Assembly: GCA_003611875.1 (NCBI GenBank)
Contig: RAYY01000008.1
Coordinates: 1-64,000, forward strand
DNA: 64,000 bases
Direction: 5' to 3'
Source: a bacterium D16-56
GTDB taxonomy: Bacteria > Bacillota > Clostridia > Lachnospirales > Lachnospiraceae
Within the stretch, counting starts at the first letter, position 1; each line of letters begins with the position of its first letter. Below the pieces are notes generated by a model. The model worked only from the letters and a program-made list of their open reading frames with translations. It was not told the DNA's origin and did no database searches. Positions 10,353 to 29,181 of this stretch are shown here, piece by piece. Both the position numbers and the translations under genes were made by a program.

Positions 10353-10359
10353 ATGCCCC

Positions 10360-13226: not shown

Positions 13227-13229
13227 CCC

Positions 13230-15788
13230 TTACTTCCTCCCATCAAAGAAATTCTCCTCCCATGTATCATCCTCAAAAGCAAAAAATGTCTCCTCCCCCC
13301 GGTACAACAGCTCCCCCTCCCGCAGCACCGGCAGCACGATAAATCCCCATTTTTTCCGGGAAACCCACACAAAGAACTTCATCTCTCCCTCCTGGATGAT
13401 ATCCGTTTCCTCCTGGATCACAGTCCCCCCATAAGCCTCATTGATCTCCTCCTGGGTAGTCTGAAGAAACCGGGCCGTGTCATAGGTAAAAGAATAAGTC
13501 CGAAGCCGTTTCCCCTGGCTGTCATTTAAGTACAGATCAAGCTGCCTTCCCACCATAAACCGAGAAATATATCCTATCTCATCCTCCCGGTCCAGGCTTT
13601 TGATGAGAACCTTCTCCTGGTTCTCATGGGTATAGGCCATAATCTCATAAGGCAGCGTCCCCACCTGGTACTCCTGGTTCACCTTCATATACCCCAGCTT
13701 CCGGTTAAAGAAATAGGCCAGCGCCCCTTCCAGGCAGCACATCTTTAGCTGTGTCCCATTCTCCTCCTTCCGGGAATGCTGAATCAGCCGCCCCGGCACA
13801 TACTCCTTCAGCGCCTCCGTAAACAGCCGGGACTTACAGGACTGCCCTGTCAGCTTGATCATCTCATAGTTCTGCAGCTCCCCCCGGACAAATTTCTGCT
13901 CCAAAAATCGTCCCATCAGCCCATAGATATCCGGGCGCAGAATCTCCTCAATCTCATTCAAATACAGAGAAAAGGCAATCTCCTCCTTCAGATGCTCCAG
14001 CCTTCCCTGCTCCATGACAGACAGCTTCCATCGGTCCAGAAAAATGGCCTGTGTCTTTCTTCCGCTGGTTTGATTCTCCCGGTTTAAGCCTTCTCCGGCC
14101 CGGTTCTCCTGGTCCCAGCCTTTCCGGATTCTCTCATTCTCCCCGCCTGCCAGCTCCCTCCGGGTACTTACCTGAAACTCATACAAAAACTCCGGCTGGA
14201 AAAAACGCTTTTTCACCTCCTCTGCCAATTCAAACAAATAGTAATAATTGTTCTTTACATAAAAATACTCCTCCCGGCTCCGCTCCTCATACTCCTTAAA
14301 GCGGGTAGGAAGCACTGCCTCCGCCCTTTTGTACGCCTCCTCCAGACAGCGGATGGAAGTCTCATCTTCTTTCCCTTCCTCCCATCCCTTCAGGGCTTTC
14401 ACAATCCGTATTTTAATCAACTGCAGAATCCGGTACGTCAGGTTGTTTCCCCCAAAGTTGGTGTCCCCATTTTCATAGCTGGTTTCCAAATCCACCAGAT
14501 AAGACACCCGGCTGTTGTCAATCCGAAACCGCCCGGAGGTCAAATCCGTGGTCCCTCCCCCACAGTCAATCACCAGGGCATGATACCACTGCCCCTTCTG
14601 ATACCCGCCCTGACGAATCAGACTGTCAATGCTGTGAAACAACACCGCCATCCCCTCATCCAGCACACACTCCACCTGATATCCGGACAAAAGCTCCTGA
14701 AACAGTTCCTGGAATTTTTCCTTCTGACGGATGGGCGACAAAAGCTGAATCTGCTTAAAATTACATTTAAACTGCTGCTTCCCCATCCCGATCAAATATT
14801 CCAGGAAGGCAGCCAGCATCTCCCTGCGGGGGATCTGATATCTGTGGCCGTTTTTCAGGATCACGCTTTCCTTCCGGTCCGGGTCGCTGACCCACCGCTT
14901 AATATCATAAAAAACCGGAACCTCCTCATCCCGGTAATTTTGCCGGTTCAGCCTCGCCGCCTCACACCCAAACACATACAGAGGCCTTTGTTCCCGCACA
15001 TCCCTGATTCCGACCATGCTGGGAATCACATACCCATTCTCTGACCGGGCCAGCCGGCTGGTTCCATCCGGAAGGCAGATTCCCATGGTGGTGTTGGAGC
15101 TGCCGAAATCAATCACTAAGGGAAGCTCCGTCTCCTCCACCTTCCGCACCTGAATGTCCAGCAAAGGAATCCTCACTGCCTCCAGATACCCCAAAACCGC
15201 CGCCGTCCTGCCAAAATACCGGTCATACAAAAACTCCGATACCCTCTCCTGGGGAAAATACAAGATGGAATACTGCCTCCTTTCCAAAGGCAGCACCGGC
15301 ACCTCCCTGCCCTTCTGTAAATAAAATTCCCCATCTGTCTCCTTTAGATAAAAACAGGTATAAATCCGGTCCTCCTCATCCACCAGAAGCAGGTTTCCCT
15401 CATAAAGCCCCCACTCCGATTCCACCCGATACCCATCCAGGCTGTTTAACTCCAGATCCTCATATAAAAAGATTGTTCCCGGAATCCGGATTCCCCTCCC
15501 TTCCCGGCTTTCCATGTGAATGCCGTCCAAAAATTCCTGAAGCCTTTCCAACCCCTTCTCACAGCCCTGGTCTACATGGCGGAACTCCCTCTGGCCCCGA
15601 AAACGCATGATCCGCTGAATGTACCCTTCCCGGTCCGGCGTTTCCCGAGATGAACTGACCAGACGCTCCCTCCTGCAGATTTCCCGCAGCTGGTACATGG
15701 TCATCCCCTCTAACTGGCTTCTCTTGTAAGTCTGCATCTGCTCCGGTTCCCTTTGCCCCGGATTCAAGGTATACGTATATCGGCTCAT
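13230..15788 (-). CDS. Hsp70/actin-fold ATPase with SAP-like N-terminus
   Basis: 852 residues from the ATG at 15788, which has GGAGG five bases upstream; the ATG four codons earlier overlaps that site. Residues about 22-65 resemble a SAP-type helix-extended-helix (MTMYQLREICRRERL). The Hsp70 ATPase signatures follow: phosphate-1 DFGSSNTT at 227-234, phosphate-2 DCGGGTTD at 408-415, and an adenosine-loop-like KLTGQSCKSRLF near 650. A canonical substrate-binding domain with an EEVD-type lid is not evident; the C-terminus is a beta-rich extension. It shares the operon with a J-domain protein, which would be its natural co-chaperone. I infer a dedicated assembly or recycling machine for the particle, perhaps replacing ClpV. 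Confidence 0.8.
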   Translation of the reverse strand: MSRYTYTLNPGQREPEQMQTYKRSQLEGMTMYQLREICRRERLVSSSRETPDREGYIQRIMRFRGQREFRHVDQGCEKGLERLQEFLDGIHMESREGRGIRIPGTIFLYEDLELNSLDGYRVESEWGLYEGNLLLVDEEDRIYTCFYLKETDGEFYLQKGREVPVLPLERRQYSILYFPQERVSEFLYDRYFGRTAAVLGYLEAVRIPLLDIQVRKVEETELPLVIDFGSSNTTMGICLPDGTSRLARSENGYVIPSMVGIRDVREQRPLYVFGCEAARLNRQNYRDEEVPVFYDIKRWVSDPDRKESVILKNGHRYQIPRREMLAAFLEYLIGMGKQQFKCNFKQIQLLSPIRQKEKFQELFQELLSGYQVECVLDEGMAVLFHSIDSLIRQGGYQKGQWYHALVIDCGGGTTDLTSGRFRIDNSRVSYLVDLETSYENGDTNFGGNNLTYRILQLIKIRIVKALKGWEEGKEDETSIRCLEEAYKRAEAVLPTRFKEYEERSREEYFYVKNNYYYLFELAEEVKKRFFQPEFLYEFQVSTRRELAGGENERIRKGWDQENRAGEGLNRENQTSGRKTQAIFLDRWKLSVMEQGRLEHLKEEIAFSLYLNEIEEILRPDIYGLMGRFLEQKFVRGELQNYEMIKLTGQSCKSRLFTEALKEYVPGRLIQHSRKEENGTQLKMCCLEGALAYFFNRKLGYMKVNQEYQVGTLPYEIMAYTHENQEKVLIKSLDREDEIGYISRFMVGRQLDLYLNDSQGKRLRTYSFTYDTARFLQTTQEEINEAYGGTVIQEETDIIQEGEMKFFVWVSRKKWGFIVLPVLREGELLYRGEETFFAFEDDTWEENFFDGRK

Positions 15789-15844
15789 ATCCCCCTCCAT
15801 TTCTGTACTTACATTTTCAACCGCTTACTCCAATATTTTTCATT

Positions 15845-17758
15845 TTACAACCCCGGCCCTTCCCCCAGCCGCACCTCTTCCGGCCCAGGTTCTCCAGCCC
15901 CAACACTCCCCGGTCCGGACACATCCTCTCCCGTCTTTTTCCCTGCTTCGGCCGCCTCTCCGCCTCTGGCCGCTCTTTTTTCTTCTTCTCCTACTGCCTC
16001 TACTTCCCTTTCTTCTGCCGCTCCTGCTGCTTCTTCCCCCGTCACTCCTTCTCCAACCGCCCCTCCCCCGGCCTGACCTCCATCCCTGGCCGCAATCCCC
16101 GCCTGGGCCGCTTCCAGCTTCCCATTGATCCCGTCCGCCAGCTCCGGCAGCTCCAGCCGGATATAGATCGCCTGGGCTGTCCGGTAATACGTGACAGCGC
16201 TCTCATACTTTCCCTCCGCCAGATACATATTCCCCTGATTCTCCAGCTCAATGGCATTCTTCTGGTCATTCACCCTCTGCTGGTTCTCCAGCTCCTCCTT
16301 TGCCTCCTGTGATTCCTTCTCCTTCCTGGCTTCCTCCTCCCTTGCCTCCTGAGACTCCTTTTTTGCCGCATCCTCCTGGGCAGCCTCCGCCTCTTTTTCC
16401 GCCTTGGCCTTTTGGCTGTCCTTTTCGACCGCCTCCTCCACCGCCGCCTGCTTCCTTAGGGCCTCCTCCTTCCCCTCGCTGTAATACAAAGCCGCCGCAC
16501 GGTCTCTTGCCTCCCGGTACGCTTCCACAGCCCCTTCCCGATCCCCAAAGCCTTCCCGCCTCTCCCCCAGCTCCATCAAATCAAACACCGCCAGATACCC
16601 TTCCGCCTCCTTCATCCGCGCATCCAGGTAATCCCTCCCCACATTTCCTGCCTCCATGGAAAGCCCGCGGGCCTTTCGGTACAGCTCCTGAGCCTTCTGG
16701 TATTCTCCTGCCCCCATGGCCTCATCCGCCAGCAAAATCTGCTCCGAAAGCTTGAGACAGCGGTCTGCCTCCTGAGCCTCCCCCGTATGCTTCAGGCCCT
16801 CTGCCAGCTTCTTCGCCTCCCCATACTCCTCCGACGCCTTCTTATAATTGTCATAATGCAGATATTCCTCCCCGCTTTCCATACACCGCTCCAGCCGCTC
16901 CTCCCGGTTTTTGATGTTTTGGCGGCGCAGATACACCCCAAGGCTGATTCCCCCCACTGCCAGAACAACAGGAACCGCGGCTATCAGCACCTTCTTTACC
17001 GGAAACTTCTTTTTCGGCGGCTGGTACACCTGATCTACAAAGGTCACTGCCAGCGTATAATTATCCACCGGGTTCTGCTCCTGCCCGGCCAGGATTTCAT
17101 CCTCCACCTGGTTTAAGATTTCCTCCGGCTCCTTTGCATCCTTAGACAATTCCAGCAGCTTCTCGTCGCTGCACCTTTCCCAAACCCCCCGGCTCATCAA
17201 ATACAGAATATCTCCGTTTACCAGCCGAAGCTTTTTGGAAATCATCACCCTTGGGGTTCCTCTCTCCCCCAGGTAAGAATACAGGTTATTCCGGCCCTCA
17301 TAAACCTCTGCCGCATCCTTTGGCAGCTCTCCCCTTTCACTCAGCTCCTCCGCCAACGACTGATCCCGCGTCCGGATCAGAAAACGGCTGCCTCTTTCCA
17401 GATAAAACCGGCTGTTTCCTACACAGCAGTACCGGACGCTGCGGTAATCGGTCACAGCCAGCACCACCGACGCCTTCAGGCGCATTCCGCCCCGCTGCCT
17501 CATCAGCTCCCGATGCGCCCCATGCAGGTAACGCTCCAGCCGCCCCTTCCTCATGGTGGGCCTTTCACTAAAGCTGCGGATCAGGCTCTCCACCACAATC
17601 CGCGCACTGTTCTCAAGGGGTTCCCCGTCCAGACTGTCTGCCAGCACATAACAGGCAAAATCATCCAGCTCCGCATAACCGAAATAATCCCGATTCACCA
17701 GGGCCTGCCCCTCCTCTGACAAAAACCGGGTCTGAAATTCCGAGTTGATCCGTCTCAT
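15845..17758 (-). CDS. Membrane PP2C-fold protein with coiled-coil/TPR-like C-terminus
   Basis: 637 residues. Residues 1-243 follow the PP2C phosphatase pattern: NRDYFGY at 22-28, VLADSLDG at 38-45, the GNSRFYL..GS strand pair near 114, a GDILYLMSRGVW block at 182-193 and DNYTLAV at 232-238. The metal-binding Asp of the usual SDG motif is replaced by Arg (SRG, 189-191), so activity may be lost or altered. A transmembrane helix at about 257-276 is followed by roughly 350 residues of charged helix with TPR-like repeats (EEYLHYDNYKKASEEYGEAKKL, in pieces; MYLAEGKYESAVTYYRTAQA), long Glu/Lys coiled coil, and a Gly/Ala/Glu low-complexity end. Start ATGA overlaps the stop of the upstream phosphatase gene. 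Confidence 0.7.
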   Translation of the reverse strand: MRRINSEFQTRFLSEEGQALVNRDYFGYAELDDFACYVLADSLDGEPLENSARIVVESLIRSFSERPTMRKGRLERYLHGAHRELMRQRGGMRLKASVVLAVTDYRSVRYCCVGNSRFYLERGSRFLIRTRDQSLAEELSERGELPKDAAEVYEGRNNLYSYLGERGTPRVMISKKLRLVNGDILYLMSRGVWERCSDEKLLELSKDAKEPEEILNQVEDEILAGQEQNPVDNYTLAVTFVDQVYQPPKKKFPVKKVLIAAVPVVLAVGGISLGVYLRRQNIKNREERLERCMESGEEYLHYDNYKKASEEYGEAKKLAEGLKHTGEAQEADRCLKLSEQILLADEAMGAGEYQKAQELYRKARGLSMEAGNVGRDYLDARMKEAEGYLAVFDLMELGERREGFGDREGAVEAYREARDRAAALYYSEGKEEALRKQAAVEEAVEKDSQKAKAEKEAEAAQEDAAKKESQEAREEEARKEKESQEAKEELENQQRVNDQKNAIELENQGNMYLAEGKYESAVTYYRTAQAIYIRLELPELADGINGKLEAAQAGIAARDGGQAGGGAVGEGVTGEEAAGAAEEREVEAVGEEEKRAARGGEAAEAGKKTGEDVSGPGSVGAGEPGPEEVRLGEGPGL

Positions 17759-18618
17759 CTCTCACCTCCCCCGGACGTCAAAACCGAGAACAGCACAATA
17801 CTCCCATTCTCCTTATCCTCTCCGGGCTTTTTCTCCGCTTCCCTTACCGCCTGGGCCGCCTGCTTAAAACAGCTTTCCCCTGCTGCCAGAATGTCCTCCA
17901 GCTCTGCCCAGGAAAGCTCCTGCCAGATTCCCTTGCTCACCATCACAATCCGGTCTTTGGCCCGCAGCCGGACGGGCCTTTCCGGCAGCTCGATCTCATG
18001 GAAGCCGTCCATTCCCAGGTAATTCCAGCACCGCTTTTCCTCCATGCTCCAGACTGCCTCCCTCTTAGAAAGCCTCCCCTCCTCATAAGCATGCATTGCC
18101 AGCACATCCAGGGTATGTCCCTTGCTTAAAGGGATCAGCTCCTGATTCCGCCACAAAGCAATCCGAATGTCCCCTGCCAAAGCATAATGGAGCACCCTCC
18201 CGCTGACAAATACCGCCGCCAGACAAGCTCCCCCATACCTCTCCCCAATGGTCCTCTGAATCCGCAGATGGGCTTCCCCAAAGGCTGTGCGGAAAAAATA
18301 CTCCGGATTGTGAAGCTCCCGGTAAGACTCAAAAGCATCCAATACTGTATCCATTCCAATCTGGCCGCAGACCTGCCCTGTATTCTCCTTCCCGATCCCA
18401 TCTGCCAGCACAGCCAAAATCCCCGCGCTGCTCTTATACAACTCCGCCCGGTCCGCCTGAATCTGCCGGTTCCCCGTAGTTTGGGCAATCCCATAATCCA
18501 AAGAAGGTGAAAATTCTTCTAAAAAAAACTCCCCCAGCGCCACTACCCGCACCAGAATCAGCGCCGCCAACAGAACAACCAGAAACACCATGATTTCCCT
18601 ATCTCCTGTCCCTGTCAT
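17755..18618 (-). CDS. Membrane-anchored PP2C-family phosphatase-like protein
   Basis: 287 residues with one N-terminal transmembrane helix (9-27) and a cytoplasmic PP2C fold. Visible motifs are LAVLADGIG at 68-76 (the DG metal motif), HYALAGDIRIALW at 144-156 and KDRIVMVSKGIW at 221-232. As in its neighbour, the SDG metal Asp is changed, here to Lys (SKG, 228-230). The terminal DN motif is represented by DKENGS at 268-273. The gene overlaps the FHA gene before it and the PP2C/TPR gene after it by four bases each (ATGA), so all three are coupled. PP2C and FHA proteins typically work with Thr kinases in T6SS post-translational control, but no kinase gene is visible here. Confidence 0.75.
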   Translation of the reverse strand: MTGTGDREIMVFLVVLLAALILVRVVALGEFFLEEFSPSLDYGIAQTTGNRQIQADRAELYKSSAGILAVLADGIGKENTGQVCGQIGMDTVLDAFESYRELHNPEYFFRTAFGEAHLRIQRTIGERYGGACLAAVFVSGRVLHYALAGDIRIALWRNQELIPLSKGHTLDVLAMHAYEEGRLSKREAVWSMEEKRCWNYLGMDGFHEIELPERPVRLRAKDRIVMVSKGIWQELSWAELEDILAAGESCFKQAAQAVREAEKKPGEDKENGSIVLFSVLTSGGGER

Positions 18619-19115
18619 TGCTTGATGTCATTCCATTCAAAGTTATCCCCGCACAAAGGCACAAAGATAAAACGGCTGTTCCCCATCTCAATCACATCAT
18701 AAGGCTTTAAATCCGTAGGAACATACACCGCATCCCCTCCTAAGTACACCAGACCGGAGGCGTCCCCGGGCAGCACCACGGTCTTTCTCTTTTTGTGGTC
18801 ATACACAATCACTGCATGGTTTCTCCGATTGATCTCATTGTCCCCCAAAATCCGGATGTCCATCTCATCCCCCCGCCCCACAAAATTTTTCCCCTTATGA
18901 ATCTTATAATCCATTCCTACCCGCGCCCCGCTGATACATACCAGCCAGCCGCACACCGGCTCTAACTCCTCCTCCAAAATCTCCACCGGAGGCTCAAACC
19001 CTGCCGGTTTACAATCCCCATTCTCCGTCTCCAGCTTCATACTGCAGTACGGACAAACCTTCCCGTACCGCCTCCCATTGTATACATGCCCGTTGGGACA
19101 TCTCACTAAGCTCAT
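18615..19115 (-). CDS. FHA-domain protein with N-terminal zinc ribbon
   Basis: 166 residues. The first 24 residues carry two CPxx(C/H) knuckles (CPNGH at 6-10 and CPYC at 21-24), a zinc-ribbon-like module. Residues about 60-155 form an FHA domain: GKNFVGRGDEMDI with the conserved GR, then DNEINRRNHAVIVYD, where Asn stands in the usual Ser-rich recognition strand, and PYDVIEMGNSRFIF at the end. FHA domains bind phosphothreonine. No membrane segment is present. AGGAGG precedes the ATG by about ten bases. The tight coupling to the PP2C gene suggests a phospho-switch that gates assembly. The Thr kinase, if any, must be encoded elsewhere. Confidence 0.8.
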   Translation of the reverse strand: MSLVRCPNGHVYNGRRYGKVCPYCSMKLETENGDCKPAGFEPPVEILEEELEPVCGWLVCISGARVGMDYKIHKGKNFVGRGDEMDIRILGDNEINRRNHAVIVYDHKKRKTVVLPGDASGLVYLGGDAVYVPTDLKPYDVIEMGNSRFIFVPLCGDNFEWNDIKQ

Positions 19116-19221
19116 CCTGCGCCGCCTCCTGTTTCATTTTCTGCTTGTAAACCTGAACCTGTCATGGCTGTATTTCACGGATTTTCCATGTCTCCAGCTA
19201 TCCAATAAGTCAAAATGATTC

Positions 19222-19779
19222 TTATGTCAGCAGCAGTCTTGTATTTGCAATATACAGCACATCCCCTGCCATCACCCGGCAGGGACGGTCTGTAATCCGG
19301 TAGCAGTTCCCATCCTCCACCTTCTGCACCCGCACTCCGTTGGAAGACCCCAAATCCTCCACATACCACTGGTCCAGACTGTAATTTAACGCCGCGTGCT
19401 GGTAATCCACAAAAGCGCCGTACTCACACCCTTCCAGATCCACATCCACATCCTCCTCCTTGTTTGCCCGTCCAATAATCACAGACACCCTTCCCGCCAG
19501 ATTCCACGACCGGATCGGCTTATTGCTCTCATCCAAAAGCACCAGCTCCCGAATCACCGGCTCTGCCCCCTGCTGATGGTCTGTTTCCCCTTTTCCCTTT
19601 CCGGCCATAGTCAGAAGCCTTACAAAATCCCAGGCAGAAACTGCCCCGCACAAGGCCCCTGCTCCAGCCAGGGCCAGATTTCCCCATAACGCCATATATA
19701 TCATCAGCAGAACCGAAACCACCAGGATTCCTCCATCACAGACTGCCCTTGCTGTTCTTTTCCCTTTCATATGTTCCAT
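19222..19779 (-). CDS. Membrane FHA-domain protein
   Basis: 185 residues. Residues about 13-50 form two adjacent hydrophobic helices (ILVVSVLLMIYMALWG and LALAGAGALCGAVSA), so the protein is a membrane hairpin with a cytoplasmic C-terminal half. Residues 85-185 form an FHA domain: SVIIGRANKEEDVDVDLEG, YQHAALNYS, YVEDLGSSNGVRVQ and the closing GDVLYIANTRLLL. The SSNG loop is intact, unlike in the zinc-ribbon FHA protein downstream. It lies three bases after the J-domain stop, so the orders of expression are linked. It may recruit a phosphorylated partner to the membrane, where the particle would have to dock. That role is inferred from topology. Confidence 0.8.
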   Translation of the reverse strand: MEHMKGKRTARAVCDGGILVVSVLLMIYMALWGNLALAGAGALCGAVSAWDFVRLLTMAGKGKGETDHQQGAEPVIRELVLLDESNKPIRSWNLAGRVSVIIGRANKEEDVDVDLEGCEYGAFVDYQHAALNYSLDQWYVEDLGSSNGVRVQKVEDGNCYRITDRPCRVMAGDVLYIANTRLLLT

Positions 19780-19782
19780 CCC

Positions 19783-20208
19783 CTATCGTCCGATTTTCCC
19801 GAAAAAAGAGGCAAATATTTCATCTGAGTCAATCGCCCCTTCCGGTTTCTTCCCTTTCTCCCCTTTTGGATGGTAAGTCTCCATTCCCTTCCCTGCCTTA
19901 AACCCAAAGAAACGCTCGAAGGCGCCCATGTCAGGCATCGGACCTGTCTGTTCCTGGGACTTCGCCCTCTGCCTTCCCTCCTTCCCCTTCCCTGCCTGCT
20001 CCTGCAGCATTCGGTCATACTTCTCCCGCTGTTTCGGATCCCCCAGGCACCCATACGCCTCCTGGATCTCATACATCCGGTCCTCTTTCTTTTTATCCCC
20101 CTTCACCACATCCGGGTGATACTGCTTTGCCAGCCTCCGGTAAGCCGCCTTAATCTCCCTCTCCCCGGCCTCTCTTGTCAGGCCAAGCACACCATAATAA
20201 TCCTTCAT
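19783..20208 (-). CDS. J-domain (DnaJ-like) co-chaperone
   Basis: 141 residues. Residues 1-66 are a complete J domain: DYYGVLGL, helix II with AYRRLAKQY, the invariant HPD tripeptide at about 31-33, and the C-terminal helix ending in REKYDRML. There is no Gly/Phe region, zinc finger or substrate-binding domain; the second half is basic, charged and probably disordered, ending in IFASFFGKIGR. It is therefore a specialised class-C J protein, and the Hsp70-like ATPase 4 kb downstream in the same operon is its likely partner. A ribosome site (GAGGAGGGG) precedes the ATG. It is the first gene after the internal terminator. Confidence 0.9.
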   Translation of the reverse strand: MKDYYGVLGLTREAGEREIKAAYRRLAKQYHPDVVKGDKKKEDRMYEIQEAYGCLGDPKQREKYDRMLQEQAGKGKEGRQRAKSQEQTGPMPDMGAFERFFGFKAGKGMETYHPKGEKGKKPEGAIDSDEIFASFFGKIGR

Positions 20209-20429: not shown

Positions 20430-20855
20430 TTATACGCTGTATCCGCCTTCCACTGCAACCTGTGTCATCTTATCCTTCTTCTGTTTGATGACCAGCCGAA
20501 AGGTTCCTACTCCTTCCGTATCCCCATAATCCTCCTTGTAATCCACCACAAAGGCATTGGGATAGGTGTATTTGCGCACCACCTGGGACGCTGCAATCAC
20601 TTCAATGCTTACCTTCCGGTAGCAATCAGACTTCTCCGCAGGCACCAGCGCCCACAGCCCCAACTGACGGGTGGAATCAAACGGATCCCCGTCCACAGCC
20701 GTCAGAATCTTTCCCGTAATCTCCACTGTGCTTCCAAGATCCGTGGAACGGGCATTGCTGTCCATAGGAATGTCGGTCCGAAACTTCACCCCTGTCACAC
20801 TCGCAGTCCCCAAATCAATCGTCGTTGCCCCTTCTACCTTTAATGTAAATCCCAT
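20430..20855 (-). CDS. Hcp-like tube protein candidate (copy 2)
   Basis: 141 residues from the ATG at 20855, with AAGGAAGG nine bases upstream; an in-frame ATG 18 codons earlier lacks a good site. The protein is almost entirely beta strand with one helix, and is 60% or more identical by eye to its neighbour: both share DSNARSTDLGS, (I/L)TPVDG-type loops, LVPAE..DCYR, NAFVV.Y.ED and LLIKQKKDKM. Size, fold pattern and position right after the sheath-like gene fit an Hcp/tail-tube protein, which stacks as hexameric rings inside a contractile sheath. I recall homologues in Lachnospiraceae labelled 'membrane-associated protease 1', a name not supported by any motif seen here. Confidence 0.6.
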   Translation of the reverse strand: MGFTLKVEGATTIDLGTASVTGVKFRTDIPMDSNARSTDLGSTVEITGKILTAVDGDPFDSTRQLGLWALVPAEKSDCYRKVSIEVIAASQVVRKYTYPNAFVVDYKEDYGDTEGVGTFRLVIKQKKDKMTQVAVEGGYSV

Positions 20856-20924
20856 GCTCTTATTCCTTCCTTTCCTTCTCTTTTCATTTCCATAACCTGC
20901 TTTCTGCAAAAAGTGCCAGCGCCC

Positions 20925-21353
20925 TTACTCCCCGCTGAATCCGCCCTCAAACTTCACGTTTGCCATCTTGTCCTTCTTCTGCTTAATCAGCAGCGTAAAT
21001 ACCCCGGCCCCGGTCTCATCCGTAAAGTCCTCCTCATACCCAACCACAAAAGCATTGGGAATGACAATCTGGCGCACGATTTGAGACGCATTTACCACAT
21101 CCACCTGCACGTTCCGGTAACAGTCTAAGTTCTCCGCAGGCACCAAAGACCACCGGGCAAGCTTGCTGGTGTCGTCCGCCGCCTCCCCGTCCACCGGCGT
21201 CAGAATCCTTCCCGAAATCAGCACCGTGCTCCCCAAATCCGTAGAGCGGGCATTGCTGTCCTGGGGGATGTCCGCCCCAAACACCACCTTCGTAATGCTG
21301 GTCTCCGGCAGGTTAATGGATTCACTCCCCTCAATCTTCATCCGTAATCCCAT
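20925..21353 (-). CDS. Hcp-like tube protein candidate (copy 1)
   Basis: 142 residues from an ATG with GAGGAGG seven bases upstream, one of the strongest ribosome sites in the block. It has no signal peptide or membrane segment. The sequence begins MGLRMKIEG and runs as beta strands, with a conserved DSNARSTDLGSTV turn, one helix region (DCYRNVQVDVVNASQIV) and a C-terminal strand in LLIKQKKDKMANVKFEGG. It lies between the sheath-like gene and its own paralog, as tube genes do in T6SS and phage loci. Two tube paralogs could form one heteromeric tube, or one could act as a tube initiator or terminator. Confidence 0.6.
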   Translation of the reverse strand: MGLRMKIEGSESINLPETSITKVVFGADIPQDSNARSTDLGSTVLISGRILTPVDGEAADDTSKLARWSLVPAENLDCYRNVQVDVVNASQIVRQIVIPNAFVVGYEEDFTDETGAGVFTLLIKQKKDKMANVKFEGGFSGE

Positions 21354-21447: not shown

Positions 21448-23619
21448 TTACCCCTTCTCTCCGGCCTTTCGGGTAAGCTGCACCTTCAGGTTCCGGGTGG
21501 TATTGGAAAATGTCACCTGCACCGTGCAGATCCCATACTTCTCATCAATGGTGTAATCCAGCTCATCCCCATCCTGCAAAATGGAGTTGATATGCTGGCG
21601 GTCCCCGTCCCACCGGCTCTTCTGGCTGTTGGGATTGCTGCTGAAAAATTTTAAAATCTTATCCTGCTTAAAATCCCCGCTGTAAAAACGCAGCATCCGC
21701 TCAATGTACGTTACCACCAAAGTCTTATAAATCGGCTCAAACTCGCTTCCATTGCTCAACAGATTTCTGGCCTTGTAGACCGTGATATTCCGGATTTCCT
21801 TTCCCTTGCACTGAGCATTGTCCGAGCTGAACACAAACCCAAAGCCTGTATGGTTAATGGAATTTTTAATGGCATTGGTAAAACCGGAAATCTCCTTGGT
21901 CATGCTGGTACATGCCAGCAGCCCATTGTCATCCGCCTCCACATCAAACCGCACCCCAGGATACTGGCTGGAGGTGTTGTGAAACCGCTCCTTTAGATAC
22001 TCCGGACACTGCCATGCGGCTGTGATCCCCGCCGCCTCATAGGCAGCCCCCACATAGATCCCCTCCAGCCACATCTTCATCACATCTTCTTTTTCCTTGG
22101 AAAGAGAAACGTTTCCGTCCTCATCCATCACCATCCTCCGGTCCAGAACCAGGCCCGACTTATCCTTGGGAATAATGGTTCCGTTAGGAATGCAAGGCAC
22201 GGCAAACTCACTGTAATCCTTTTTCATCAGCGGCACACATTTATCCTTAAAGCTCTGGACTCCTTCCGTAGCAATATAGCTGAAGGTGGTCTCCTCCCCG
22301 GTACAGAAGCTGAAAAACGTGGTAATCCGGTATGGCTGGATGGCATTCAGCAGGGTGGCCAGACTTTCCATGGAATTGGCTCCCGCCTTCTCCACCTTCT
22401 TATTCCCTGCAAAACGGACCCGCTGCAGCCTGCCTCCCTCTGACTGGTTTAGCTCCACATCCGGGACAATCCCGAACCAGACAGTGTTGTCAAACTCATT
22501 TTTGTCATTGGTGGTGTTGAGATAAGCCAAAAGCCTGGGAAGGTTGGAGGACTTGACCATCATGTCCAAAGGCACGTTGCAGATCAGAAGCTTGGGCTCC
22601 ATCCCCTTTTCCTTTACCTGGTACTGGTCAAAGAAAATCTTCACCCCCAGGATTTTTTCCACCAGAGGCTTTACTGCTTTCACAAAATCATCCTTGCTCC
22701 TCTTATAAAACTCCAGGTACTGGTTATAGTGGCGCACCTCTGCCTCCCGGTCCAGCGTGCTTTCCATACTGGCCCCTAATGGACAGAAGGTCCGCACCAC
22801 CAAATCCCGCACATAATCCGACGGCTCCTCATTTAAGGCGTCATAATCCTCCCGGAAAGCCTCTGCAAGGCTGGCAGCATTGGCGTCCTCCAGCACCGTA
22901 AGCTCTGTGCTCTCCTCCTGCTTCATTTCCAGAACCTTCAGCTCCCCATCGTCCCCAATGCTTAAAATCCCGGCCTTAAAGTCCGGACCTCCGGGACCGG
23001 TCTCCCCGCCTCCATAGAGAAGGCGCATCTTGGAATCCTCAATGGCCAGGGGAAGCATGGCTAAAATATGATTGTAATTGCGGCTGGCCTGGTCAAACTG
23101 GTAATTTAGCTTGTCCCCTAAATCCAGACGCTTGGGGTCCCCCTCATCCAGCTCTGCATATTTCTCAAAGGTATAGCTGATCTCCCTCCGCACCTGCCGA
23201 ATGTCCTCCATGACCTTTTTCGGGGAAATCATATCCAGCACATTGGCAAAATTAAAATCCACGTTAGCTACCCCCTGGGCCCCTTTTGCGTCCAGCAGGG
23301 TAAAGAGCATGTTCAAAAGATCATTGCTTTCATTGAGCAGAATCTCCGTAACACAGTTCTCCGGGATGTTTTCCGGCTTCACCAGGCTGTACTTCATACA
23401 TTCCGCAGCCGCGTCACACCAGGAATAGACCACCGGCCGGAACCGTTCTAAGTATTCCTCCAGGCTCCCCACCAGCAGGACGTCGTTGATCTCCTTGATC
23501 TTGTCGTCGTCCAGGCTGTTCTTCCCCCGCACATCCCCAATCAGGGTCAGCAGGTTGGGCTGTTCCGGATTGATTTCAGCAAACAGGATAGTCCTGTTTG
23601 TCTGTGTGATTGTCTCCAT
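21448..23619 (-). CDS. Contractile sheath-like protein candidate (TssB/TssC-like)
   Basis: 723 residues from the ATG at 23619 (METITQTNR), preceded by GGGAG; an ATG 35 codons upstream runs through the leader hairpins. No signal peptide is present. The size exceeds TssC (about 500) and approaches TssB plus TssC. The N-terminus has a compact alpha/beta start, then a long helical stretch to about 190. The centre includes LICNVPLDMMVKSSNLPRLL and TVWFGIVPDVEL. The C-terminus (TYIERMLRFYSGDFKQ, then ICTVQVTFSNTTRNLKVQL) ends in beta strands, like the interlocking arms of sheath subunits. The assignment rests on size, architecture and adjacency to the tube-like genes; I see no diagnostic sheath motif. 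Confidence 0.5.
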   Translation of the reverse strand: METITQTNRTILFAEINPEQPNLLTLIGDVRGKNSLDDDKIKEINDVLLVGSLEEYLERFRPVVYSWCDAAAECMKYSLVKPENIPENCVTEILLNESNDLLNMLFTLLDAKGAQGVANVDFNFANVLDMISPKKVMEDIRQVRREISYTFEKYAELDEGDPKRLDLGDKLNYQFDQASRNYNHILAMLPLAIEDSKMRLLYGGGETGPGGPDFKAGILSIGDDGELKVLEMKQEESTELTVLEDANAASLAEAFREDYDALNEEPSDYVRDLVVRTFCPLGASMESTLDREAEVRHYNQYLEFYKRSKDDFVKAVKPLVEKILGVKIFFDQYQVKEKGMEPKLLICNVPLDMMVKSSNLPRLLAYLNTTNDKNEFDNTVWFGIVPDVELNQSEGGRLQRVRFAGNKKVEKAGANSMESLATLLNAIQPYRITTFFSFCTGEETTFSYIATEGVQSFKDKCVPLMKKDYSEFAVPCIPNGTIIPKDKSGLVLDRRMVMDEDGNVSLSKEKEDVMKMWLEGIYVGAAYEAAGITAAWQCPEYLKERFHNTSSQYPGVRFDVEADDNGLLACTSMTKEISGFTNAIKNSINHTGFGFVFSSDNAQCKGKEIRNITVYKARNLLSNGSEFEPIYKTLVVTYIERMLRFYSGDFKQDKILKFFSSNPNSQKSRWDGDRQHINSILQDGDELDYTIDEKYGICTVQVTFSNTTRNLKVQLTRKAGEKG

Positions 23620-23654
23620 AGGCACTCGCTCCCTCTTTTCATTTTTTCCTCTGC

Positions 23655-23733
23655 ATGGCAGGTCTTGCACCTGCCATAAAGGTAGATATGAAAGTTTGCT
23701 TTCATACTTTACTGCCAATATCATTTGATATTG
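23655..23733 (-). other. Two hairpins in the vWA-sheath intergenic leader
   Basis: The 128-base gap between the vWA stop and the sheath ATG holds a perfect 9-bp stem, ATGGCAGGT/ACCTGCCAT, at 23655-23677. It also holds a perfect 8-bp stem, CAATATCA/TGATATTG, at 23716-23733. Neither is followed by a U-tract, so these look like mRNA processing or stabilising structures rather than terminators. That would fit high expression of the sheath and tube genes that follow. Confidence 0.45.
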
Positions 23734-23747
23734 TTTCTATATCTCTG

Positions 23748-25907
23748 TCACTGAATCACCGCTATGTAGTGAATCTCCAGATCATAGACCTTATCCTCTG
23801 ACGTAATGTAAATTACATCGCCAAAGCTGACACTGTACCGGATCCTTTTACAAAGAATGGAATTTCCAATCATAACGGATGCGCCGGACGTATGGTAAAG
23901 GATCATCCTCCGGTCTTCATCTGCTGTCAGGGTAATCTCATCCAGCCCCAGCCTGTCACAGGCATCCGGGTATTCCCTCATCAGGCTCCCTAAGCTGACC
24001 TGGTTATCCTTTACCCGGTACATTTCAAAGGACAACGGCGGGATCTCCTCCTCTGTCTCCGGCTGTGCCGTAAAATAGGCGTCCAGCTTTCCGGCAAAAC
24101 GGTTCTTCCTGTTCTCGATTTCCAGCTTTTCCACTTCCGGTACAGGCCTATGCGCTAATTTTCCAATAACCAGAGCCGCTGCCAAAACCAAAAGAAGCAG
24201 CGCCCACCAGTATTCCCTCCACAAAGGAACCACGATAACGGACAGTTCATACTCTGTAACGGCCTCTCCATCCTTCACCTGAATGACCGGCGCATAATTT
24301 CCGCTTCTTTCCGGTTTAAGGAAAAGACGGTCCCCCTCCAGGGAAAGCTTTAAGCCATCCTCTGATCCTGTCACCTCATAAGTCAGAACATCCCCGTCCT
24401 CATCGTCAAAATATTCATTCAAGCACAGTTTCTCTGCCTCACTCAATACAGTACACCTGATTTCCGGAACACTGCCCAAAGGCAGCCTGTTTTCCACCAC
24501 TGCTTCCAGTTGAAACGGATAGCTTCCCAGCCCATCCTTCAAGATTCCGTTTAAGAAATAGGTTCCAGATTCCCGAAAGTTCACAGTCCCCTCCATAACC
24601 CCATTTGCCAGGCTCATCCCCTCCTTCGCCTTCTCGCCATCGACAGCTCCGCCGTCAACACCCTTCTTCTTGTCGCCATCGACAGCTCCGCCGTCAACAC
24701 CCTTCTTCTTCTCACCATCAACAGCTCCGCCGTCAACACCCTCCTTCACCTTCTCGCCGCCTTCCTCCTCACCTGTTCCTTCCTCCCTATCCGCCTTCAG
24801 CTCCCACTGAAACCTGCCATAAAAATCCATGTCCCGGATAATTTCCCCATCCTTTTTCCTAAAATACACCTGATAGGGAATATCCTTGTTTTTATAAATG
24901 GGCTGCCGAAATGCCAAAACCGGTGTTAAACTCCGATAGCTGATCACATACACCTGCAGACTTTGTCCTGCCGATGTGGTGGTCTGAACCGTCAGCTCTT
25001 TGATATCGTCCCTTACCTCCCCATATCCAATCTTCCCCACCGCATAATGGTTTAAGTTAACTGCATGGATCTGCTTCTCCCCATACAGGATGGATGTCTC
25101 TCCCACATTTCCGGAAGATATCAGGATCACGGCAATCTCGTCCAGATAAGGCTCATCCAATATACAGTGGATGCTCTGCTGTCCGTCTGCATACACGCCG
25201 CTGGAATAAGGCTGGATTTTGCAGGACAAAACATTTTTAAAAATCCCATACAACACCTCAATCAGCTTTTCCGGCGTCTCGGCAGAATAGCTTTCTGCCC
25301 CCGTATCCTCTGCCATCCTTTCTAAGTCTGTCCTGCTTCCGTCATAAGTCCCGAAGGCAATGGTATAAATCTGAATATTTTCCTTCTGGCACTGTCTGAC
25401 ACACTGCATAAGCTCTGCATTGGACTGCTCTGTGGTCCGGCCGTCCCTTCCCTTTAGATCTGTCTCCCCATCGGAGATCAGCACAATAACCCGCTTGCGT
25501 CCGGCCTCATCCGGCATCTGATGATATGCGTATGAAAGCCCTAACCCCATATCCGTATCCCGTGAATAGACGATGGAATCCATGGATTGTTTTAAGATTT
25601 CCCGATCTTCCTGATTTTCTATGGAAACCAGCTCTAAGCTGGCCTGAATCCTGTCATTGTAAGCCACATATCCGATTCGAATATCCTCTGCATGGATGGT
25701 ATCGATAAATGTCTTTACCATCCCAAGTCCCGTCCGGTCCGGATCATTGGATTTCAAGGACCCGCTGCAGTCAATGGCAAAGATCAGATCCAGACCCGTC
25801 CTCTGGCTGGTAATTTCTCTCACTGGCTCTGATTCCTGGGCTTGGGAGACGAAGGATAGGGTCAGCATCAGAACCACACTCCATATCAATATCCGTGTTG
25901 CTTTCAT
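23748..25907 (-). CDS. Surface von Willebrand A protein with membrane anchor and cytoplasmic FHA-like end
   Basis: 719 residues. A signal peptide (1-24, LLMLTLSFVSQAQ) leads into a vWA domain at about 38-230 with the MIDAS motif DCSGS and VLISDGETD. Then follow beta-rich extracellular modules, including a charged linker at about 385-435 with three VDGGAVDG repeats and a cadherin-like YFDDEDGDVLTYEV motif. A transmembrane helix lies at about 565-590 (WWALLLLVLAAALVIG), and about 120 cytoplasmic residues end in a small beta-rich, FHA-like domain (MIGNSI..FGDVIYI). It is the first gene after the operator-linked promoter. I infer a surface receptor or anchor, either sensing contact or holding the particle at the envelope, as a stand-in for the missing membrane complex. 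Confidence 0.75.
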   Translation of the reverse strand: MKATRILIWSVVLMLTLSFVSQAQESEPVREITSQRTGLDLIFAIDCSGSLKSNDPDRTGLGMVKTFIDTIHAEDIRIGYVAYNDRIQASLELVSIENQEDREILKQSMDSIVYSRDTDMGLGLSYAYHQMPDEAGRKRVIVLISDGETDLKGRDGRTTEQSNAELMQCVRQCQKENIQIYTIAFGTYDGSRTDLERMAEDTGAESYSAETPEKLIEVLYGIFKNVLSCKIQPYSSGVYADGQQSIHCILDEPYLDEIAVILISSGNVGETSILYGEKQIHAVNLNHYAVGKIGYGEVRDDIKELTVQTTTSAGQSLQVYVISYRSLTPVLAFRQPIYKNKDIPYQVYFRKKDGEIIRDMDFYGRFQWELKADREEGTGEEEGGEKVKEGVDGGAVDGEKKKGVDGGAVDGDKKKGVDGGAVDGEKAKEGMSLANGVMEGTVNFRESGTYFLNGILKDGLGSYPFQLEAVVENRLPLGSVPEIRCTVLSEAEKLCLNEYFDDEDGDVLTYEVTGSEDGLKLSLEGDRLFLKPERSGNYAPVIQVKDGEAVTEYELSVIVVPLWREYWWALLLLVLAAALVIGKLAHRPVPEVEKLEIENRKNRFAGKLDAYFTAQPETEEEIPPLSFEMYRVKDNQVSLGSLMREYPDACDRLGLDEITLTADEDRRMILYHTSGASVMIGNSILCKRIRYSVSFGDVIYITSEDKVYDLEIHYIAVIQ
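24633..24749 (-). repeat. Three tandem 39-bp repeats within the vWA gene
   Basis: The motif CGACAGCTCCGCCGTCAAC starts at 24641 and 24680 and recurs with one change at 24719, an exact 39-base period. It encodes GVDGGAVDG(E/D)KKK repeats in the extracellular linker. Such repeats change number easily by slippage in frame, so linker length may vary between strains. Confidence 0.9.
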
Positions 25908-25995: not shown

Positions 25996-26064
25996 AAGAT
26001 ATCACACTAATTTTTATATTTCAATATACTTTCCGTTTTTTGTCGTTTTTTGACCGTTTTTTGT
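25996..26064 (-). promoter_or_regulatory. Injection-operon promoter with triple-repeat (LytTR-type) operator
   Basis: On the minus strand, a TTGAAA -35 box (26019-26024) and a TATCTT -10 box (25996-26001) are spaced by exactly 17 bases. Three bases upstream of the -35 is a 37-bp operator (26028-26064) of three CAAAAAACG(G/A) units on an 11/10-bp period, with the outer pair 21 bp apart. The same operator, 35/37 identical and at the same distance from the -35, controls agrD. The 21-bp spacing suits a LytTR (AgrA-type) dimer. Confidence 0.75.
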
Positions 26065-26100
26065 CATTTCATACTATCTTACTCAATATTAATGCAAATT

Positions 26101-26137
26101 AAAAACAGGAGAAACCCTTCTTATCGGATATCTCCTG
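26101..26137 (-). terminator. Intrinsic terminator after agrB
   Basis: On the minus strand, CAGGAGA pairs with TCTCCTG across an 18-base loop and is followed by TTTTT. It begins immediately after the agrB stop codon, so the agr transcript ends before the injection-operon promoter, and the two units depend on separate copies of the operator. Confidence 0.75.
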
Positions 26138-26138
26138 C

Positions 26139-26723
26139 TCATCTTTTATATTTTCTATTTTTAACAATTCCTGCGATCAATAGAAGAATCAACATGAAAT
26201 GACTTAAAGCAATTACCAGGCTAATCTTGTGGATGCCCTTCTGATAGCAAATCACCCCTATCAGCGCTTCTGCCGCCCATATGCCTCTGGCAATCCTTCC
26301 ATAAATCTTCCTCTCCCTCCGGTCAAGCGGCTTATTGTGGTCTTCTACCGGAGCCAGGAAAAAAATAAGCGCTCCGCACACACTGCTGCAAATCAGGCTG
26401 ACGGCAAATACCGCTTCATAAGGGATCCATTTTGCCGCCCAGCATACACAGCAAAGCATCCCTGTGGAAATCACAGTACAAGTGTTAAAGTTGTCTGCAT
26501 GATGTCCCCCTGCATAAGAACGCAGAGGAATAAAGGAGAAAAGAAACATCAGTACTGTGTCATATGCCCGAAAAACAACTGCCAAAAGACAGGCAATCAA
26601 AAGATTGACCACCTGCCCGATCAGCAGTTCAAAGGCATATTGGTATAGCTTCTGATCCTGAAAAGTAAGATACTTATTCTTAATCTGCCATGTCACCAGA
26701 CGTTCTGCCAGCCTTTCAATCAT
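26139..26723 (-). CDS. agrB: AgrB-like cysteine protease / peptide exporter
   Basis: 194 residues, a polytopic membrane protein with about five to six hydrophobic segments. The catalytic pair is present: His75 and Cys82 in RSYAGGHHADNFNTC, with the same seven-residue spacing as His77/Cys84 of S. aureus AgrB, and the RSYAGG signature is typical of clostridial AgrB. The family cleaves the AgrD tail and closes the thiolactone ring. It starts six bases after agrD ends, so substrate and processing enzyme are co-translated. Regulation is probably through the operator-bearing promoter just upstream of agrD. Confidence 0.9.
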   Translation of the reverse strand: MIERLAERLVTWQIKNKYLTFQDQKLYQYAFELLIGQVVNLLIACLLAVVFRAYDTVLMFLFSFIPLRSYAGGHHADNFNTCTVISTGMLCCVCWAAKWIPYEAVFAVSLICSSVCGALIFFLAPVEDHNKPLDRRERKIYGRIARGIWAAEALIGVICYQKGIHKISLVIALSHFMLILLLIAGIVKNRKYKR

Positions 26724-26729
26724 AGCCTT

Positions 26730-26903
26730 TTAGAACCTTTTAAAGCGTCTGGCTTCCTCCGGTACCTCCGGCTGATGGTCCAGCCACATGCATCCTGAGT
26801 TTACATTCTGAAATACAGTCAGAATCGCCAGAGCATTAAAGGCAGTCATAGCCCAATTCCTGCTTCCTAATTTTTTTAATACCTTACAAAGATTTTTACG
26901 CAT
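26730..26903 (-). CDS. agrD: AgrD-like cyclic autoinducer pre-peptide
   Basis: 57 residues from the ATG at 26903, set by AGGAGG seven bases upstream; an ATG 21 codons earlier has no such site and would overlap the leader hairpin. The N-terminus is an amphipathic basic helix (RKNLCKVLKKLG), the middle is hydrophobic (AMTAFNALAILTVF), then comes the signal core NVNSGCMWLD and the charged tail HQPEVPEEARRFKRF, which contains the QPEVP recognition block of clostridial AgrD. By analogy with other AIPs the ring is Cys38 to Asp42 (CMWLD, five residues), with a short N-terminal tail of unknown length. AgrB would cleave between Asp42 and His43. Confidence 0.9.
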   Translation of the reverse strand: MRKNLCKVLKKLGSRNWAMTAFNALAILTVFQNVNSGCMWLDHQPEVPEEARRFKRF

Positions 26904-26942
26904 CACTGCTACCTCCTGCTTTTTGATAGATACCCATAAGCC

Positions 26943-26975
26943 AAATGATTTCAGCACAGTTTCCAATCATTTAGC
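26943..26975. repeat. Hairpin motif in the agrD leader, shared with the agr upstream region
   Basis: AAATGATT and AATCATTT form an 8-bp stem around a 14-base loop. The 31-base core from 26945 matches 29783-29813 at 28 of 31 positions, in the same orientation. Here it lies in the 5' leader between the agrD promoter and the ribosome site, so it could be a regulator site or an RNA element. Confidence 0.6.
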
Positions 26976-26986
26976 CTTGTGAGTAT

Positions 26987-27054
26987 AACATACCAAAAAA
27001 TCAGGAAAAATCAACCCACTTTCCATTTTTTGTCATTTTTTGACCGTTTTTTGT
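26987..27054 (-). promoter_or_regulatory. agrD promoter with triple-repeat (LytTR-type) operator
   Basis: The operator copy at 27018-27054 overlaps the last codons of the histidine kinase gene. Three bases on is a TTGATT -35 box (27009-27014), with TATGTT (26987-26992) at 16-base spacing as the likely -10; TATACT just beyond is an alternative. Activation here by the phosphorylated LytTR regulator would give the positive feedback loop typical of agr systems. Confidence 0.75.
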
Positions 27055-28352
27055 ATATTGGACAAGATCACTACAACCTTAAACTGGTCGCGGCCTTCCT
27101 CTATATTTAAAATTCCATGATATTTCTCCGCAAGCTCTTGAACCATCTGCAGGCCAAATCCATGTCTGGCTTCATCCTCCTTTGTCGTCAGATACTTACC
27201 GCCGCTTTTCTTTCTTTGATGCTTAAAGTTATTCGAAATCTGAAACACCACAAGAGACTCATTTCCTCTATACAGGCTGGCAAACAAACGACCTGCTTCA
27301 CACTCGCCTGCCGCCTTCAGCGCATTATCCATCAGATTTCCAAAAATCCGGATTTTATCTGTCTCACTGATAAAATCAATCTGCGCATCTGGCTGCACCT
27401 GTACCTCATAACAGATTCCTCTGTTTTGGGCTTCCTTTTCCCGTTCAATCAAAATTGCATTTAATACCGCGTCATGTGTATAGAATTTCTTGCTTCCAGG
27501 ACTTTTCCTCTTCAAAAGCTCTGACGCCTCATCCGCTAATTTTCTCAAACCATAATGGGATTCCTCCTCCACCAGCAGCTTCATTGTCTGAACAATATGC
27601 TTCATCTCATGGATATATCCTGCGTATTCCTCATTGATCTCCTGCATACGCTGATAATGATTATGCTCCAAATCCGTTTTTAACTTCATCATTTCCTGAT
27701 TCTTGACCTTATTTTCCGTTATAATCAGCTTTTCAACCACAAAAAAATTCACGATATTACTCAGAATAATCAAAATTCCACCCAGACATATGACTGAATA
27801 TCCATAAGGATACCAGTCCCTGATCAAAAATCCATTTAATAAGATCAGCACAGATACCGGCAGAATAAACAAGCTTTTTAAATCAGAAAAAAATTGGTCC
27901 TTTGACAGATAAGGATGCTTTTTTCTGATCATTTGCATTAAAATCATAAACTCACATATTTTCTCAACAGCCAGACGGAATATCCAACTATCCTCGGTTA
28001 TGGCAATCGAAATTCCCAACGCCCGATATATATGGAAGCATACAAATTCCACAATACACAGCATCGCATAGAAAAAAAACACATAAAATAAAAGCACCTT
28101 GATCTTTTCGCGAAAAAGCAGCCATGAAAAAAAGGTCAGCACAAGAGGAATGCACAGTAAATTCAAATAGGAATTTCCCACAAGGTTAATCCCAAAAATC
28201 AATGCAGCAAAAATGCCGGATTCCAATATTCTGATTTTTTTATCTTCCTCATAGAATGGAAACCATGTGTTTAAATAATGGTAAAACAAAAAGACTTCAA
28301 ACACACAGTTCAGATACATAATCATTCCATGAAAAAATCCCATATCAACCAT
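27033..28352 (-). CDS. agrC: AgrC-like GHKL sensor histidine kinase
   Basis: 439 residues. Residues 1-220 contain about six hydrophobic helices (NCVFEVFLFYHYL, SLFILPVSVLILLNGFLI and others), forming the peptide-sensing domain. A coiled linker leads to the phospho-acceptor box YIHEMKH at about 248-254, then a GHKL ATPase with the N-box NLMDNALKAA at about 345 and a G-box GFGLQMVQELAEKYHG near 405. No extracellular loop domain is present. The ribosome site (GAGGG) lies within the end of the regulator gene. Its ligand should be the AgrD-derived peptide encoded next to it. Confidence 0.9.
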   Translation of the reverse strand: MVDMGFFHGMIMYLNCVFEVFLFYHYLNTWFPFYEEDKKIRILESGIFAALIFGINLVGNSYLNLLCIPLVLTFFSWLLFREKIKVLLFYVFFFYAMLCIVEFVCFHIYRALGISIAITEDSWIFRLAVEKICEFMILMQMIRKKHPYLSKDQFFSDLKSLFILPVSVLILLNGFLIRDWYPYGYSVICLGGILIILSNIVNFFVVEKLIITENKVKNQEMMKLKTDLEHNHYQRMQEINEEYAGYIHEMKHIVQTMKLLVEEESHYGLRKLADEASELLKRKSPGSKKFYTHDAVLNAILIEREKEAQNRGICYEVQVQPDAQIDFISETDKIRIFGNLMDNALKAAGECEAGRLFASLYRGNESLVVFQISNNFKHQRKKSGGKYLTTKEDEARHGFGLQMVQELAEKYHGILNIEEGRDQFKVVVILSNIQKTVKK

Positions 28353-28362: not shown

Positions 28363-29124
28363 TCAATTTCTTCCCCAATAGGAAGACAATTCCTTTTCAA
28401 ATTGTGTCCTTTTTGCCCTGGCAACTGTTAATTGGACGCCGCCTGTCAGTTGAACATACTCTTTAAAGCAGCCCACTACATGCCGCAAATTAATGATGTA
28501 GCTTACCTTGGCATAAGCAAACCCATGATCCTTTAACTGTTTATAATAATCATCCACCTTCTGCTTACTTTTAACGGTAAAATTCTTTGCTTCTTTCTCA
28601 GGAATATCCAAAAACTTGACGATTTCCCTGGTGCGGCTTTCTGTCAGATAAATCTCACTTTGCTTCTTATGAATCGCTATGTACAAAATGTCGGACAACT
28701 GCAAGGACAGCGTGTGGGCCCCACAGGAAACCTTCAGCTTATAGGAATCCTTCCTTCTTCTGACCTCCTGCAGCGTGTCCGATAGCCTGGAAGCGCCTTC
28801 CCTCAAAAGAGAATCTTTGACCAGATAGCTAAAAGGCTGTACATGAACCACCTGACTGGCCGGATAATCAATTCCTGTATAAAAAGAAATCACTGTATCC
28901 TTGCTTCTCTCGCGAATGTACTCTGCCACCTGTGTGCCCTTCATGCTTCCCTGCATATTGATATCTAAAAAAACAAGATCAAATTCCCTATAATTTTTAA
29001 TAAAATCTTCCCCGCTATTAAATTCATAGATTGTCCATTCCTCTGGGTCATGTACAATCTGCTCAATCAGCTTCCTTAAATTCCCAATATCATTTCGGCA
29101 ATCATCACATATTGCAATATTCAT
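28363..29124 (-). CDS. agrA: AgrA-like LytTR response regulator
   Basis: 253 residues from the ATG at 29124 (MNIAICDD), which has an AGGAAAGGTG site; the frame opens 11 codons earlier without one. The receiver domain (1-120) has the acidic pair CDD at 6-8 and the phospho-acceptor Asp in DLVFLDINMQG near residue 57. The LytTR DNA-binding domain (about 145-250) shows LSDILYIAIHKKQSEIYL and a final VARAKRTQFEKELSSY, in pieces. LytTR proteins bind paired 9-bp repeats about 21 bp apart, which matches the operators at 26028-26064 and 27018-27054. It is the likely activator of both agrDB and the injection operon. Confidence 0.9.
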   Translation of the reverse strand: MNIAICDDCRNDIGNLRKLIEQIVHDPEEWTIYEFNSGEDFIKNYREFDLVFLDINMQGSMKGTQVAEYIRERSKDTVISFYTGIDYPASQVVHVQPFSYLVKDSLLREGASRLSDTLQEVRRRKDSYKLKVSCGAHTLSLQLSDILYIAIHKKQSEIYLTESRTREIVKFLDIPEKEAKNFTVKSKQKVDDYYKQLKDHGFAYAKVSYIINLRHVVGCFKEYVQLTGGVQLTVARAKRTQFEKELSSYWGRN

Positions 29125-29181
29125 TTCTGCACCTTTCCTGATATGACTTGCTGTCAAAATCCAGTCAAAGGATAGTATTCT

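Follow-up and report, generated by a model that had tools for sequence, protein, structure and literature searches.

The window, a stretch of 64,000 nucleotides from the Lachnospiraceae bacterium D16-56, carries an agr-type quorum-sensing module and, downstream on the same minus strand, an operon for a contractile-injection-like machine, with near-identical operator-like boxes ahead of the two transcription units. We consider it very probable that the locus is an AgrA-type circuit with two promoters and a contractile-injection-like payload. The agrD peptide, processed by AgrB, would be sensed by AgrC, which would phosphorylate the LytTR regulator AgrA. AgrA in turn would bind a pair of 10-bp direct repeats, with a spacing of 21 bp and centred near −60, at each of two promoters; the first would drive agrD-agrB, giving positive feedback, and the second would drive the operon of the contractile-injection-like machine. 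Since a terminator is predicted to end the agr transcript, the injection operon would require an operator copy of its own. The boxes, the promoter-like elements and the terminator, the uniqueness of the box pair in the assembly, the pairing at six loci and the covariation with the regulator can all be read from the DNA. From these features we infer that AgrA binds the boxes and activates rather than represses, that the promoters respond to the peptide and that the machine injects.

The agr genes are all located on the minus strand. AgrA (28363..29157) has a receiver and a LytTR DNA-binding domain according to Pfam (Response_reg, 4e-9), so that the LytTR regulator reported for this locus in a preliminary description is indeed encoded there, although the LytTR score is barely above the cut-off (23.2 bits compared with 22.6). 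It is accompanied by AgrC, a GHKL-type sensor kinase (27033..28352; HATPase_c_5, 7e-17), the 57-residue peptide precursor AgrD (26730..26903) and AgrB, the peptide processing and export protein (26139..26723; PF04647, 6.4e-36). A Pfam search with the window AgrD gave no match, and the protein is identified by its likeness to AgrD-like ORFs that adjoin the agrB genes of relatives. It has a Cys and four residues ahead of HQP, and its start is probably the ATG at 26903, which gives 57 residues, rather than the TTG of the long ORF. AgrD-like ORFs with the HQP pattern lie beside 19 of the 24 agrB genes examined, that of the window included, and ring formation by their products is putative. At L115, L117, L118, L119, L126 and L128, AgrD-like ORFs that follow agrB read SEFG[MIL] before HQP or FQP, with Ser in place of Cys; these may perhaps give a lactone ring.

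A 37-bp box had been described at two places in the window, and scanning and alignment located both copies there on the minus strand, copy 1 ahead of agrD-agrB (27054-27018) and copy 2 ahead of the injection operon (26064-26028), with 35 of 37 bases identical. The two promoter regions reached a score of 33.0 in a local alignment, compared with a maximum of 21.0 over 3000 dinucleotide shuffles. The box had been presented as three repeats. Three units are present in the window, but relatives keep only the outer pair, hence the three repeats are better described as two conserved units and a middle unit specific to this lineage. The conserved operator thus appears to be the outer pair of 10-bp units, and the three-unit box was rejected in this role because the relatives in an alignment of 12 promoters are without the middle unit. 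The distance of 21 bp between the outer units, as originally given, was found in both copies. A genome scan for further copies, which had been proposed, covered the assembly of 5,542,728 bases (202 contigs, 97.5% complete) and returned the 37-mer with up to 3 mismatches at exactly two places, both in the window, with none for the control; with just two copies in the assembly, a dispersed or mobile repeat was rejected. A looser scan for the outer pair (20 specified bases, at most 3 mismatches) gave 15 places compared with 11 for the reversed control, and is therefore regarded as noise except for the two window copies, which alone had 0 mismatches, the next-best place having 2. RNA structure at the box was also rejected (fold z 0.11).

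The box stands 3 bases ahead of the −35 element in both promoters, as the preliminary description had it, with TTGATT beginning at 27014 and TTGAAA at 26024, in each case 3 bases past the 37-mer. The predicted agrD promoter (26987..27014, minus strand) combines this TTGATT (27014-27009) with a −10 element TATGTT (26992-26987), the automatic scan slightly favouring TATACT at 26987-26982 as the −10. The predicted injection-operon promoter (25996..26024, minus strand) consists of TTGAAA, 17 nt and TATCTT, with a TG ahead of the −10. The terminator expected after agrB was recovered as a fold followed by a T run (26103..26140, minus strand), with a free energy of −19.9 kcal/mol and z of −4.8; none of 200 shuffles was equally stable.

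Box 2 is located in non-coding DNA past this terminator, 990 bp from box 1, in which the first 22 of the 37 bases belong to the end of agrC and its stop codon. It might be argued from the coding origin of these 22 bases and the 990 bp between the copies that box 2 is a functionless relic left when the end of agrC underwent a short duplication. We regard this as highly improbable, since the likeness stops at the box edges (identical bases: 10 of 50 upstream, 19 of 50 downstream) and since in five relatives boxes with different sequences are paired at comparable promoter positions. Two operator copies serving two promoters remains our preferred reading. The overlap of the operator with the last agrC codons (27018-27040 in the window) recurs at the related locus L165; in both, one stretch at the agrC end would be protein code and operator at once.

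The window operator comprises 10-nt units separated by 11 nt, with the −35 about 8 nt past the second unit, an arrangement that fits the LytTR/AgrA-type layout. As far as the available text of these sources goes, LytTR regulators usually recognize repeats of 9-11 nt with 11-13 nt between them (PMC4847170), Staphylococcus aureus AgrA a direct-repeat pair near −60 (PMC4227749), and the LytTR sites of HdrRM/BrsRM have the same kind of layout (PMC6193735). We searched for repeats, with no anchor, in 33 non-redundant promoter regions kept of 39, two of them from the window. 10-mers repeating at 9 or more of 10 matches with a lag of 20-22 were present in 18 of the 33 regions (shuffles: mean 1.7, maximum 5). 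Lags of 20, 21 and 22 were seen at 10, 7 and 2 loci, respectively, and every other lag from 12 to 45 at no more than 3. Direct repeats of 20-22 bp therefore stand out across these regions and match the published layout, in accordance with the earlier view that the unit spacing is that of AgrA-type LytTR regulators. The alignment of 12 promoters was anchored by hand on boxes already seen, and so illustrates the layout and is no independent test; the repeat-lag test, the second-box test and the 3000-shuffle test were unanchored. In most of the 12 aligned promoters the second unit starts 21-22 nt after the first; L206_inj and L153_agr have a poor second unit. A hexamer resembling a −10 element, at +62 to +64, puts the repeat pair near −60. 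The automatic scan chose another −10 in four of the 12; the +62 to +64 hexamer ranked second or third in three of these and was recognized only by eye in L206_inj.

Related loci were collected with the tube protein as marker, from the best 80 of 246 relatives and from stretches of further genomes. The named relatives among the best 80 of 246 include Lachnospiraceae, Lacrimispora and Clostridium, and also Paenibacillus and Brevibacillus. Cluster and architecture counts omit L209, L210 and L223, which repeat L096, L116 and L152; L235, L236 and L237 are L101, L099 and L119 again. An agrB gene lies upstream on the same strand in 23 of 96 clusters. When only the 77 clusters for which 4 kb or more of upstream sequence is available are considered, 38 have an agr-type gene within 3.5 kb (agrB in 20) and 39 have none, so that the association of agr with injection genes is common but not general. 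At L096-L099 and L101, agrA-agrC stands directly ahead of the gene for a VWA protein, and no agrB was detected. At L161-L163, L166-L168, L174 and L175 (Paenibacillus, Brevibacillus) and at L220, the VWA gene is oriented divergently to the injection genes; agr genes were not detected at these loci.

The architecture set consists of 23 loci, six with a separate injection promoter and 17 others. The six (the window, L153, L156, L159, L165 and L206) carry agrA-agrC-agrD-agrB, with agrD before agrB and then a gap of 155-842 nt to the injection genes. A hairpin followed by a T run lies 3′ of agrB in five of them (about −13.5 to −20.1 kcal/mol); at L159 the scan gave only a weak hairpin (−7.8) in this position, and an inverted repeat lacking a T run is visible in the gap. 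At the 17 other loci agrB, or agrB then agrD, leads into the first injection gene across a gap of −47 to about +227 nt. None of these run-on loci has a strong terminator: eight have no gap to fold (−47 to +15 nt), seven gave no terminator-like hairpin when scanned and two have weak hairpins (−3.8 and −7.2). L110/L111 and L139/L146 are near-duplicates, and the 17 loci are thus not independent. L114, with its gap of ~227 nt, has neither terminator nor box. Taken as sequence features, these arrangements support the conclusion that agr is linked to the injection genes either by run-on or by a second operator. Two loci from a genome of another family were added later. L247 is of the run-on type, and its agr genes are preceded by a 21-bp repeat. 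The gap at L248 measures 88 nt and holds an AT-only hairpin (−8.9 kcal/mol). A shared box is lacking at L248, where 211 of 1000 shuffles scored as well, and its best repeats include no lag of 20-22; this locus is a possible exception, a terminator with no second box, if the AT-only hairpin terminates. A search of the two genomes of the G320 genus yielded no further close locus, and an agrB search of genome contigs found no relative.

All six loci with a clear separate injection promoter have a box common to the agr and injection promoters, the weakest being that of L153. The number of dinucleotide shuffles, of 3000, that reached the observed box score was 0 for the window, L165, L159 and L206, 1 for L156 and 45 for L153. 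L206 was fetched and read after the paired-box pattern had been recorded, and it shows the shared box. The sequence of the box varies among lineages, and when the six agr promoters were matched with the six injection promoters in all 720 ways, the in-locus pairing was best (151.2, the next being 143.0). L156 is a near-tie, its agr promoter scoring 16.2 with the injection promoter of L165 and 15.8 with its own. The second-box test covered 21 loci, five with a separate promoter and 16 others; L207 lay outside it, and L247 and L237 were scored without shuffles. No convincing second box was found among the 16 run-on loci tested. The best of them, L148 (gap of 4 nt), gave a weak match that 4 of 500 shuffles equalled and was not counted as a box. 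Chance as the source of the paired boxes was rejected by the 720 pairings, the shuffle tests and the repeat-lag test. That a shared box co-regulates the two operons had been proposed from one genome; comparison across loci supports this proposal through the pairing of the boxes, their divergence together, the run-on loci with no strong terminator and the direct repeats at 20-22 bp.

The boxes also vary with the regulator. The strongest matches between loci are those of the window with L165 and of L159 with L206 (20.0-23.4). The LytTR domains of the window and L165 are 36% identical, those of L159, L206, L156 and L153 are 43-55% identical to one another, and identity between the two groups is 20-30%. 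The injection genes group otherwise: the window VWA protein shares 27% identity with its L165 counterpart, 43-47% with the proteins of 13 of the 16 run-on loci in the second-box test and 24-32% with the other three; for the window tube protein o20430 the values are 64% with L165, 77-91% with 14 of these 16 loci and 65% with two. The box therefore appears to go with the regulator, its similarity mostly tracking the DNA-binding domain of AgrA and not the injection genes.

The same comparison bears on whether another protein reads the boxes, either the XRE-type regulator whose gene (29182-29553) adjoins agrA in the window or another LytTR protein, in which case the operons would be co-regulated with no peptide input. 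An XRE gene also lies beside agrA at L153 and L156, and the window genome, which has two agrB matches in total, gave 16 matches to the AgrA query. However, no XRE gene was detected near agrA at the remaining three separate-promoter loci, the repeat spacing is of the LytTR type, and box similarity for the most part follows the AgrA LytTR domain. We therefore judge a different reader to be distinctly unlikely and retain AgrA as the probable one.

The injection genes run on the minus strand from 25907 to 4877; the gaps between them are no longer than 106 nt, except for one of 221 nt. The first encodes the VWA protein (23748..25907; Pfam), and it is followed by a conserved protein of 758 residues (21448..23724), recognized by its conservation and a candidate sheath from position only, and by two paralogous Hcp-like tube proteins (20430..21353) that are 58% identical to each other. 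The remaining presumed operon genes (4877..20208), assigned from Pfam and gene layout, encode DnaJ, two FHA-type, PP2C and TPR proteins, five unnamed proteins, two VgrG-like proteins, a pentapeptide protein, one unnamed protein and a DUF4280 protein. In the 221-nt gap, which separates the tube genes from DnaJ, a GC-rich hairpin is followed by a T run (20290-20400, minus strand; z of −1.5 for the whole stretch), and this could reduce transcription of the downstream injection genes. Further VgrG-like genes occur in this genome (G000:C126 and C153, that is L088-L090; window 3585-4841) and are without a box copy.

The label of injection operon depends on the Hcp-like and VgrG-like genes. Pfam places Phage_GPD (VgrG-like) in two proteins and DUF4280, which we take to be PAAR-like, in a third. 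The top Foldseek match of the Hcp-like tube is F. johnsoniae Hcp1 (E 7.7e-5, TMq 0.55, model pLDDT 68.8), and Pfam TssD was found in 13 of 17 tube members at E values up to 1, the window protein at 0.014 being under the gathering score. The unnamed injection genes searched gave no convincing family match to a sheath or to canonical Tss baseplate or membrane proteins. The 758-residue sheath candidate has no family match and a model pLDDT of 36, and searches of solved structures returned only weak, unrelated matches in one case and none in another. For want of a sheath or canonical Tss match the machine is called contractile-injection-like and is not filed as a type VI secretion system. It is conceivable, given that these searches recovered neither a sheath nor a canonical type VI baseplate protein, that AgrA binds both boxes and that the operon is not for attack, serving for example in particle release or in a role within the cell or population. 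The presence of Hcp-like tube paralogues and two VgrG-like proteins speaks against this, and we think it rather unlikely; a machine that injects is the reading we favour.

A comparison of the window with G023 (L084), two species of the genus, suggests how such loci change. Three neighbouring genes (window 32487-39460; L084 9163-17376) are 91.5-97.5% identical, and agrA is 28% and agrB 42% identical, with strongly different boxes. From this it seems that the code of signal and operator has been replaced as a unit at a fixed chromosomal site. More tentatively, and with rather less than even confidence, we suggest that the injection operator and the agr module of this Lachnospiraceae group evolve as one exchangeable cassette, with a peptide, an AgrA-operator code and two copies of the operator particular to each lineage, such that the weapon would be armed only by the density of kin.

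To our knowledge, the switching-on of contractile-injection-like machines in Gram-positive gut bacteria has received little study. In several of the species compared here, the DNA alone allows signal, operator and target promoter to be recognized, and the circuit would tie agr-type cyclic-peptide signalling, best known in staphylococci, to a tube-and-spike weapon. The loci also provide a natural series of paired operators that have changed along with their regulator, interspersed with run-on designs for which a second operator is unnecessary. In the open-access literature we found no paper joining agr quorum sensing with a contractile injection system, or AgrB with VgrG; an injection-type payload and the alternation of run-on and second operator were likewise not found among the open-access matches listed, and the link between agr and injection may already be in print elsewhere.

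The design in which one LytTR regulator acts on its own signal genes and on an effector operon through operator copies is already known from S. aureus P2/P3. There, one such regulator drives both the genes of its own signal and an effector transcript via direct-repeat operator copies near −60 (PMC4227749). In that system the two promoters (agrBDCA, RNAIII) point in opposite directions and P3 yields a regulatory RNA, whereas the window has tandem operons split by a terminator, the second encoding a contractile-injection-like machine. The HdrRM/BrsRM systems of Streptococcus mutans are similar in having direct repeats with a separation of 11-13 bp immediately ahead of the −35, with low conservation of sequence and high conservation of spacing, and a regulator that also activates a weapon, namely bacteriocins; they differ, so far as the excerpted account describes them, in being without an AgrB/AgrD peptide module and in a weapon that is a peptide, not a tube-and-spike machine (PMC6193735). 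Gram-negative type VI secretion under quorum control, as partly described for Vibrio fluvialis and Chromobacterium violaceum, relies on other circuits (CqsA/LuxS-HapR in V. fluvialis) with no AgrD-type cyclic peptide in these descriptions, and resembles the proposed circuit in that density sensing controls a contractile weapon.
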